Origin: Pseudomonas izuensis
GTDB taxonomy: Bacteria; Pseudomonadota; Gammaproteobacteria; Pseudomonadales; Pseudomonadaceae
Length of the DNA stretch: 64,000 nucleotides
Reading direction: 5' to 3'
NCBI RefSeq assembly: GCF_009861505.1
Contig: NZ_WTFT01000008.1
Coordinates: forward strand, 309,727 to 373,726
Shown here: piece after piece, positions 9,338 to 10,849 of the stretch
Position numbering within the stretch: position 1 is the first letter of the stretch
Layout: every line of letters starts with the position of its first letter
Made by a program: the position numbers and the translations under genes
The notes under the pieces: generated by a model
Seen by the model: the letters and a program-made list of their open reading frames with translations, nothing else
Told to the model about the DNA's origin: nothing
Databases searched by the model: none

Positions 9338-9352
9338 CCGGAGGACATGCCT

Positions 9353-10849
9353 GTGAAGACCCCTATCCTCAACACACCGCCGACCCTGTGGGAGCGAGCC
9401 TGCTCGCGATGGGTTCAGCGTGGTGTCTCTGATGTACCGAGTTGTTTGCATCGCGAGCAGGCTCACTCCTACATGGGAACAGTGTGTGCCTTGGCATTGG
9501 CGGTGAGCCTCGCCGGTTGCGCCGGCCTGCCTGACCAGCGCCTGGCCAACGAAGCCCTCAAACGTGGCGACACCGCCACCGCCGCCGCGAACTATCAGCA
9601 GCTGGCAGACCTGGGCTACAGCGAGGCCCAAGTTGGCTTGGCCGACCTTCAGGTCGACAGCCACGACCCCGCGCAAATGAAACAGGCCGAGGCGACTTAC
9701 CGCGCCGCCGCCAGTGTTTCCCCGCGCGCCCAGGCGCGTCTCGGTCGTCTGCTGGTGGCCAAGCCCGGCGCCACCGAAGCCGAACATCACGAAGCCGAGG
9801 GCCTGCTGAAAAAAGCCGCAGCCGCTGGCGAAGGCAACACCCTGATCCCGTTGGCGATGCTGTACCTGCAATACCCGCACAGTTTCCCCAACGTCGATGC
9901 GCAAAAGCAGATCAGCCAATGGCGTGCCGAAGGCAAGCCGGAAGCGGGCCTGGCCCAAGTGCTGCTGTATCGCACCCAGGGCACCTACGACCAGCATCTG
10001 GATGATGTGGAAAAAATCTGCAAAGCCGCAATCAACACCACCGACATTTGCTATGTCGAACTGGCCACGGTCTATCAGAAAAAAGCCCAGCCTGAGCAGC
10101 AGGCCGAGCTGATCAAACAGCTGCAGGCGGCGCACAGTCGCGGCACTGTTTCCGCTCAACGGGTGGACAGCGTGGCCCGCGTGCTCGCCGATCCGACCCT
10201 GGGCAAGACCGACGAAAAAACCGCGCAGTCGCTGCTCGAACCGATCGCACCGGGCTACCCGGCGTCGTGGGTCACCCTCGCGCAGTTGCTCTACGACTTC
10301 CCTGAACTGGGCGATGTCGATCAAATGATGAAGTACCTCGACAACGGCCGTGCCGCCGACCAGCCGCGCGCCGAACTGTTGCTGGGCAAGCTCTACTACG
10401 AAGGCAAAATGGTCCCGGCCGACGCCAAGGTCGCCGAAGAACATTTCCAGAAAGCCGTCGGCCGCGAAGTCGCCGCCGATTACTACCTCGGCCAGATCTA
10501 TCGCCGTGGCTACCTGGGCAAGGTCTATCCGCAGAAGGCCCTCGACCACCTGCTGACCGCTGCACGAAACGGCCAGAACAGCGCCGACTTCGCCATCGCC
10601 CAACTGTTTTCCCAAGGCAAAGGCACCAAGCCTGACCCGCTGAGCGCGTATGTGTTCAGCCAGCTCGCCAAAGCCCAAAACACCCCGCAAGCCACCGAGC
10701 TTGCACAAACACTCGAAGCCCAACTGCCGCCTGCGCAGCTGGCCGAGGCCCAGCGCCTGTTGAAACAGGAACAGGCGACCCGTGGTGCGCTTAGCCAGAA
10801 CACTCCGCAACTGCAGGCCCTGCAAGAAGACGGCGAGGAATCCCTATGA
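9353..10849 (+). CDS. algK: Alginate export scaffold lipoprotein AlgK, with a REPIN inside its signal-peptide region
   Basis: AlgK is an outer-membrane lipoprotein of Sel1/TPR-like repeats that helps assemble the AlgE secretin-like pore. The mature part (CAGLPDQRLANEALKRGD onward) is full length. The start is unusual. GTG at 9353 has GGAGG eight bases upstream and encodes (M)KTPILNT, but then about 94 bp of REPIN runs in frame before ALALAVSLAGC, the hydrophobic stretch and lipobox. The acceptor Cys is thus residue 56 instead of about 20. An ATG at 9473 would give a 16-residue signal with no positive charge and no clear ribosome site. An ATG at 9347 is too close to GGAGG. Its stop overlaps algE by ATGA. 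Confidence 0.9.
   Translation: MKTPILNTPPTLWERACSRWVQRGVSDVPSCLHREQAHSYMGTVCALALAVSLAGCAGLPDQRLANEALKRGDTATAAANYQQLADLGYSEAQVGLADLQVDSHDPAQMKQAEATYRAAASVSPRAQARLGRLLVAKPGATEAEHHEAEGLLKKAAAAGEGNTLIPLAMLYLQYPHSFPNVDAQKQISQWRAEGKPEAGLAQVLLYRTQGTYDQHLDDVEKICKAAINTTDICYVELATVYQKKAQPEQQAELIKQLQAAHSRGTVSAQRVDSVARVLADPTLGKTDEKTAQSLLEPIAPGYPASWVTLAQLLYDFPELGDVDQMMKYLDNGRAADQPRAELLLGKLYYEGKMVPADAKVAEEHFQKAVGREVAADYYLGQIYRRGYLGKVYPQKALDHLLTAARNGQNSADFAIAQLFSQGKGTKPDPLSAYVFSQLAKAQNTPQATELAQTLEAQLPPAQLAEAQRLLKQEQATRGALSQNTPQLQALQEDGEESL
9384..9477. repeat. REPIN (class B, GAGCCTGCTCGCGA type) inside algK coding region
   Basis: CCCTGTGGGAGCGAGCCTGC ... GCAGGCTCACTCCTACATGG; the arms pair with one main mismatch (GCTCACTCC for GCTCGCTCC). 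It sits between the first eight codons of algK and the hydrophobic core of its signal peptide, with no stop codon in the algK frame. Confidence 0.9.

Follow-up and report, generated by a model that had tools for sequence, protein, structure and literature searches.

REPINs of the Pseudomonas fluorescens complex consist of two inverted REP sequences tagged by GTGG or GTAG and separated by a variable loop; they are present in hundreds of copies and are accompanied by transposase candidates of the Y1 type (Bertels and Rainey 2011, PMC3116915). They are described there as nearly all extragenic (in SBW25, 14 out of 1067 16-mers overlap genes), and in a model of REPIN populations a copy landing in a gene is assumed to destroy that gene (PMC8049555). 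Palindromes that keep the reading frame are known in Rickettsia (PMC10969869) and in other genomes (PMC3733652). The Rickettsia palindromic elements (RPEs; Ogata et al. 2000, 2002, as reported in PMC10969869 and PMC3733652) are in frame, are read as protein and occupy many unrelated genes. Repeat codons in annotated genes have also been described for intragenic GTAG/CGTC REPs (PMC3733652) and for enterobacterial repeat units in open reading frames (ORFs) with signal sequences (PMC2759123), and changes of REP class at an orthologous place (orthoswitch) for REPs that flank RAYT genes (PMC3686654).

The REPIN that we describe here lies in the leader codons of algK in the window (the whole stretch of DNA that was analysed, 64 000 nucleotides long). 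It shares the arms, loop, copy number and transposase candidates of the P. fluorescens-complex REPINs, but it is in frame, it occupies one and the same leader across species and it tends toward the REP class of its genome. With the RPEs it shares a palindrome in frame that is very probably read as protein; unlike the RPEs, which are spread over many genes, it occupies a single, likely cleaved leader, and its changing classes track the resident population. The accessible text of PMC3733652 and PMC2759123 gives neither a comparative test of the frame nor a turnover of classes within one gene, both of which the algK case offers, and orthoswitch, as presented in PMC3686654, concerns the flanks of RAYT genes whereas the algK case concerns the codons of a protein. 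In the literature searched, which covers subscription journals thinly so that prior notice is possible, none of the titles and abstracts listed deals with algK REPINs. Our main conclusion, which comparison of the sequences makes quite probable, is that many Pseudomonas have an in-frame REPIN in the n-region of algK that would be translated and then cleaved off, and whose arms would have been overwritten repeatedly by the REP class resident in the genome.

The element is the sole inverted repeat in 9200-9700: its 28-nt arms (9384-9411 and 9449-9476) are 89% complementary with 37 nt between them, and the two REP arms that they contain are close and inverted, their starts being 63 bp apart (Table 1). 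The window holds 10 occurrences of the REP 22-mer with <=3 mismatches (0.00 expected from shuffled sequences), and the exact class-A 22-mer occurs 301 times in the genome of the window (G000), a high copy number for which the reversed control pattern gave 0 occurrences in the same genome. G000 also has three matches above the cut-off to Y1_Tnp (PF01797), which are candidate transposases and candidate RAYTs only. An extragenic location, which is part of the REP name and is usual but not absolute, is not found here, as the element is within the frame of algK. The arms, the copies and the open frame thus all bear out the sequence-only reading, which had placed a REPIN in frame in the region encoding the AlgK signal peptide. 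The class letters A-H that we use were assigned in this analysis, independently of the 'class B' of that reading: A is GCGAGC/GCTCGC, B is GCTGGC/GCCAGC, C is GCGGGC/GCCCGC, D is GCGGGC/GCTCGC, E is GCCGGC/GCCGGC, F is GGGGGC with CCCC or TCCC, H is GCTGGC/GCCTGC and b is GCCAGC/GCTGGC.

Table 1. Positions in the window of algK, its upstream neighbour, and the REPIN and signal elements of the algK leader
Feature	Position	Strand	Remarks
alg44 (presumed), upstream neighbour	8168..9337	+	ORF, position before algK; stop TAA 9335-9337
algK ribosome-binding site GGAGG	9340..9344	+	8 nt before GTG 9353; motif recurs in relatives
algK CDS	9353..10849	+	from conserved GTG; open also from ATG 9347
REPIN	9384..9476	+	inverted repeat, 28-nt arms; in-frame reading LWERACSRW...HREQAHSYMG
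Left REP arm, GTGGGAGCGAGCCTGCTCGCGA	9388..9409	+	class A, exact
Right REP arm, GTAGGAGTGAGCCTGCTCGCGA	9451..9472	-	class A core; 2 differences from left arm
Internal in-frame ATG, proposed restart	9473..9475	+	not generally conserved
Hydrophobic core and lipobox codons, VCALALAVSLAG	9482..9517	+	by inspection
Lipobox Cys codon	9518..9520	+	residue 56 from GTG 9353; expected mature residue 1

The gene itself is identified by NCBIfam NF038194 (AlgK_TPR_lipo; 805 bits with a cut-off of 700, residues 45-490). This match begins at residue 45, past the REPIN, so the curated model ignores the variable leader; the solved AlgK structures likewise match the ORF (counted from ATG 9347) from residue 59 (3e4b) and residue 58 (7ula). 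We take the gene upstream, by its position before algK, to be alg44, and NCBIfam yields just weak adaptor-type matches below the cut-off for it. Signal peptidase II cleaves lipoproteins just before the lipobox Cys. The features of such a Sec/SPase II signal are recognizable in AlgK by inspection, with an Arg in the right arm, the core VCALALAVSLAG and the Cys encoded at 9518-9520, and the frame from GTG 9353 to this Cys is open throughout. In a relative with no REPIN (L103) the Cys is residue 23 from the equivalent GTG, in agreement with the earlier suggestion that the REPIN displaced the acceptor Cys to residue 56. The ATG at 9347, the start given by ORF calling, is only 2 nt past the GGAGG, and GTG 9353 is 8 nt past it. 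Among the main set of loci (defined below), 72 out of 74 have a GTG at the start position (the search admitted GTG or ATG, and two starts were not found); the codon equivalent to ATG 9347 is CTG in two of those 72, and TTG, GTG or ATA in four other loci. Relatives with short leaders start at a GTG of the same kind as the one that precedes the REPIN.

A search of the genus gave a match in 247 out of 249 genomes, of which the weak ones need not be AlgK. We used the best 150 listed of these 247 genomes and dropped one locus (L151, cut by a contig end), which left 149 usable loci. At least one REP arm is found in the algK leader of 101 of the 149, and both arms in 77; the bearers number 106 if five loci that have a long inverted repeat alone are counted in. 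The main two-arm set (74 loci) is the 77 minus two loci of class EE and L153, in which the elements are in another register. Such leaders were also seen in named genomes of a further collection, which include P. koreensis, P. jessenii, P. reinekei, P. moorei, P. mandelii, P. lini, P. baetica and P. viridiflava. An assembly or sequencing artefact is unlikely, because the 101 separate genomes have REP arms at that same position of algK. Across 30 loci (4.5 kb each, centred on algK), every one of the 59 REP arms counted falls within the algK leader. The sequence-only reading had named, as an observation that would speak against it, a conserved and non-repeat part of algK at this position in close relatives. 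The sequence is indeed shared by relatives, yet it is still a REPIN there, and mostly of a class common in its own genome.

A recent insertion in the strain of the window was considered and rejected, as the REPIN is common to relatives. Nor does the element look recent, because its best matches within the genome are modest: 0.71 (global score with gaps penalized) for the top scorer among the 80 REPINs of a 777-kb portion of G000, and 82% for the best other match listed in the genome search, in which 40 of 878 candidates were scored. The REPIN is not obligatory either, because several REP-rich genomes (G005, G046, G162, G090 and G016) have a short algK with no REPIN. On the algK tree its presence or absence changes at least 21 times. 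The leaders of L100, L103 and L125 have an intact core and no REPIN; in L100 the start and core resemble those of the long leaders but are not separated by a REPIN, so that it is either a clean deletion or an empty site. Loss of the REPIN from the algK leader is therefore possible. In other lineages, the leaders of L121, L122 and L177 have inverted repeats that do not fit the GTGGGAG-type pattern, so the algK leader may host further repeat families. In four other loci (L021, L083, L116 and L124) a similar short insert breaks the right arm (REQVGSPHRRSH and alike), in frame each time.

The reading frame of the leader was examined with a blind search for the start motif (GAGGACATGCCnGTG, <=2 mismatches, any frame). 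Wherever the motif was found it is in frame with the Cys: in 70 out of 70 loci of the main set, 26 out of 26 other bearers and 20 out of 20 loci with no REPIN (it was not found in four, six and 23 loci of these groups, respectively). Between the left arm and the Cys, frame 0 is free of stops in all 74 loci of the main set, and the other two frames are stop-free in 27 and 11 of them; the repeat sequence thus does not force the frame. The arms in the main set are spaced 63 bp (59 loci), 66 bp (10 loci) or 78 bp (five loci) apart. Each of these spacings is a multiple of 3, and on the algK tree the spacing changes at least 14 times. For comparison, the spacing is divisible by 3 in 40 out of 86 head-to-head REPINs in 861 kb of G000 (the algK copy included), and in 13 out of 25 REPINs for G119 and 26 out of 31 for G053 (400 kb from each genome); since REPINs of these last two genomes are often divisible by 3 anyway, the spacing argument is weak alone. 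The distance from the start to the Cys (a multiple of 3 in all 118 loci) was set aside as evidence, as these starts had been sought in frame. The option of a long signal, one of two that had been offered before, gains support: each of the 116 start motifs found is in frame, and the long leader containing the REPIN is very probably translated.

We then compared the class of the algK arms with the REP population of each genome, using exact counts of five REP classes in 80 genomes chosen to span the algK types. In 59 genomes, 77 out of 112 arms are equal to the top class (of five) of the genome, whereas 2000 permutations of the genomes averaged 29.9 such arms and never exceeded 49; the remaining 35 arms are not of the top class. 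In pairs independent on the tree, the class ratio shifts with the algK class in 15 out of 15 (P = 6e-5); these pairs were drawn, nearest first and with non-overlapping paths on the algK tree, from 45 genomes whose two arms are equal (A, B, C or D). A stricter comparison restricted to supported branches goes in the same direction but is underpowered because it has too few pairs: five to six each for A/D, A/B and B/D (3.1-4.4 agreeing versus 0-0.1 opposed, smallest P = 0.06), and just three, two and zero for A/C, B/C and D/F. Class b has 31-69 copies in five out of six genomes with a b arm (two copies in the sixth) and 0-14 in the 19 others (25 genomes in all), and class H has at least 172 copies in 10 out of 12 genomes with an H arm (three and 14 copies in the remaining two); abundance of class H is not exclusive to such genomes, as two of the 14 with no H arm (26 genomes in all) have 426 and 722 copies.

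The two arms can also be followed separately. They are of the same class in 56 of the 74 loci (19.6 expected), and the 18 loci in which the arms are unlike, or one is unclassified, are as arm-by-arm conversion would give. For example, in four genomes with a DF locus, F (the right arm) has 192-1132 copies and D (the left arm) 1-16, so that in these loci one arm looks current and the other a fossil. In L117 and L081 the leader REPIN is 88 bp long, with a spacing of 66 that is common in their own genomes, and scores 0.86 and 0.89, respectively, with copies elsewhere in those genomes. Four leaders (L078, L136, L139 and L141) read as a REPIN nested in an older one. Overall, the algK leader and the mobile REPIN population seem to evolve in concert.

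Several other explanations have to be weighed against repeated overwriting of a translated REPIN. It might be that algK simply begins downstream of the REPIN (e.g. at ATG 9473), with the REPIN an untranslated insert in the operon mRNA; PMC3733652 cautions that REPs at N-termini may be extragenic and wrongly annotated, and between the start of the right arm and 12 codons before the Cys an in-frame ATG is present in 41 of the 74 main-set loci, so translation may restart there in some species. But 33 loci have no ATG in this stretch, 13 have no ATG, GTG or TTG, and for 60 of the 61 with some start codon there the Shine-Dalgarno match is <=4 nt; as a general solution, the restart at ATG 9473 proposed from the sequence fails on these counts. 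A signal beginning there, MGTVCALALAVSLAGC, would moreover be uncharged, the ribosome site is upstream of the REPIN in long leaders while the same motif serves the short ones, and that motif keeps its frame with the Cys despite varying leader lengths, all of which makes a misannotated start very unlikely. Doubtful too, if less so, is that one old REPIN has moved with algK by plain inheritance or allelic exchange, the match of classes being shared history with no overwriting. Leaders are shared within groups, and REP class abundance is reported to follow strain phylogeny roughly (PMC3686654). Three loci (L009-L011) look like recombinants of algK alleles, and part of the class changes may thus stem from allelic exchange instead of conversion from elsewhere. 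Against inheritance as the whole explanation, the two-arm label (with absence as a state) changes at least 66 times on the algK tree, the independent pairs follow the class of the genome without exception, the DF genomes join a right arm of an abundant class to a left arm of a near-absent one, and there are the nested-looking REPINs.

The other two explanations concern what the element might do for its host. The folding of 9325-9530 is far more stable than that of shuffled sequences (z -6.8), and the arms co-vary, as would be expected of a hairpin kept since it lowers AlgK translation relative to the neighbours in the operon; however, copying from resident REPINs would also yield arm co-variation, many species have no REPIN and some have truncated or nested forms. 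The energy needed to open the start region is 9.7 kcal/mol in the main set (SD 1.7, n = 72), 10.0 kcal/mol in loci with no REPIN (SD 2.7, n = 19) and 10.0 kcal/mol in other bearers (n = 27). Because the start region is equally accessible with and without the REPIN, the earlier idea that the hairpin throttles initiation of AlgK is without support, and we think a functional throttle quite unlikely. Slightly better placed, but still unlikely, is a positive domestication in which selection would keep the REPIN for the n-region charge that the right arm gives, so that loss is costly. In every one of the 74 main-set loci a K or R is encoded within or beyond the right arm, and in 52 there is none past the arm, so in those 52 the codons of the right arm supply the charge ahead of the core. 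The residues of the leader, however, are under weak constraint: in 20 pairs of closely related leaders matched for class and length, which share sequences and are not independent, pN/pS is 0.57 for the leader and 0.04 for the mature protein at equal pS (0.195 and 0.194). The intact cores of the leaders of L100, L103 and L125 and the many switches between presence and absence also speak against a costly loss.

Other REPINs near or in genes were seen in the same genome. In 861 kb of G000 (6.87 Mb) there are 119 REPINs and 95 entries of REPIN-spanning ORFs of >=80 aa. Twenty of the 95 spanning ORFs or pieces were scanned (the piece L268 without its REPIN), and a Pfam domain extends across the REPIN in one, CobN; as to an RPE-like spread over many genes, these 20 entries gave, apart from algK, a single gene of G000 with an in-frame REPIN, cobN. 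The cobN element (L291 18640-18720; G000:C4:238640-238720, minus strand) is in frame as CRSRLAGDGVSVALISTDTPSLASQ, and the CobN-Mg_chel domain spans it. Within the window, three clustered REP arms are found at 6509-6610, in the gap between an ORF ending at 6480 and one starting at 6651, inside the presumed alginate operon; by position, we take these flanking ORFs to be algD and alg8. A further REPIN (27377-27464) precedes, by about 40 bp, a candidate ATG of a minus-strand gene for a FUSC-family membrane protein. It is probably extragenic, because the Pfam domain starts after it, though a longer ORF reads through.

To explain these observations we propose that a REPIN entered the algK leader long ago and that the ribosome would read through the repeat, the Arg codons of the right arm giving positive charge ahead of the hydrophobic core. 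Signal peptidase II would then remove the whole leader before the Cys, so that the mature AlgK would be unchanged and selection would police mainly the reading frame. A leader that is read through and discarded would likely let the host tolerate the REPIN while the frame holds. Resident REPINs would likely overwrite the algK copy, arm by arm or whole, perhaps through ectopic gene conversion and, in certain lineages, through a new REPIN inserting itself in the older one. A stronger form of this proposal, to which we give a little better than even chances, is that the AlgK leader serves REPINs as a standing address, and that its codons are replaced class after class by resident REPINs while selection checks the frame alone, as SPase II discards the product.

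Contrary to the assumption that a REPIN landing in a gene destroys it, about 100 species genomes have a frame-keeping REPIN in a gene for alginate export, and the algK case argues that REP codons at an N-terminus need not mean misannotation. If borne out, overwriting of the leader by resident REPINs would offer a codon-level record of the turnover of REPIN classes, a locus at which REPIN-to-REPIN gene conversion could be caught, and a testable rule on where mobile DNA can survive inside genes. And if the AlgK leader is indeed such a standing address, cleaved leaders would be refuges for selfish DNA inside genes.
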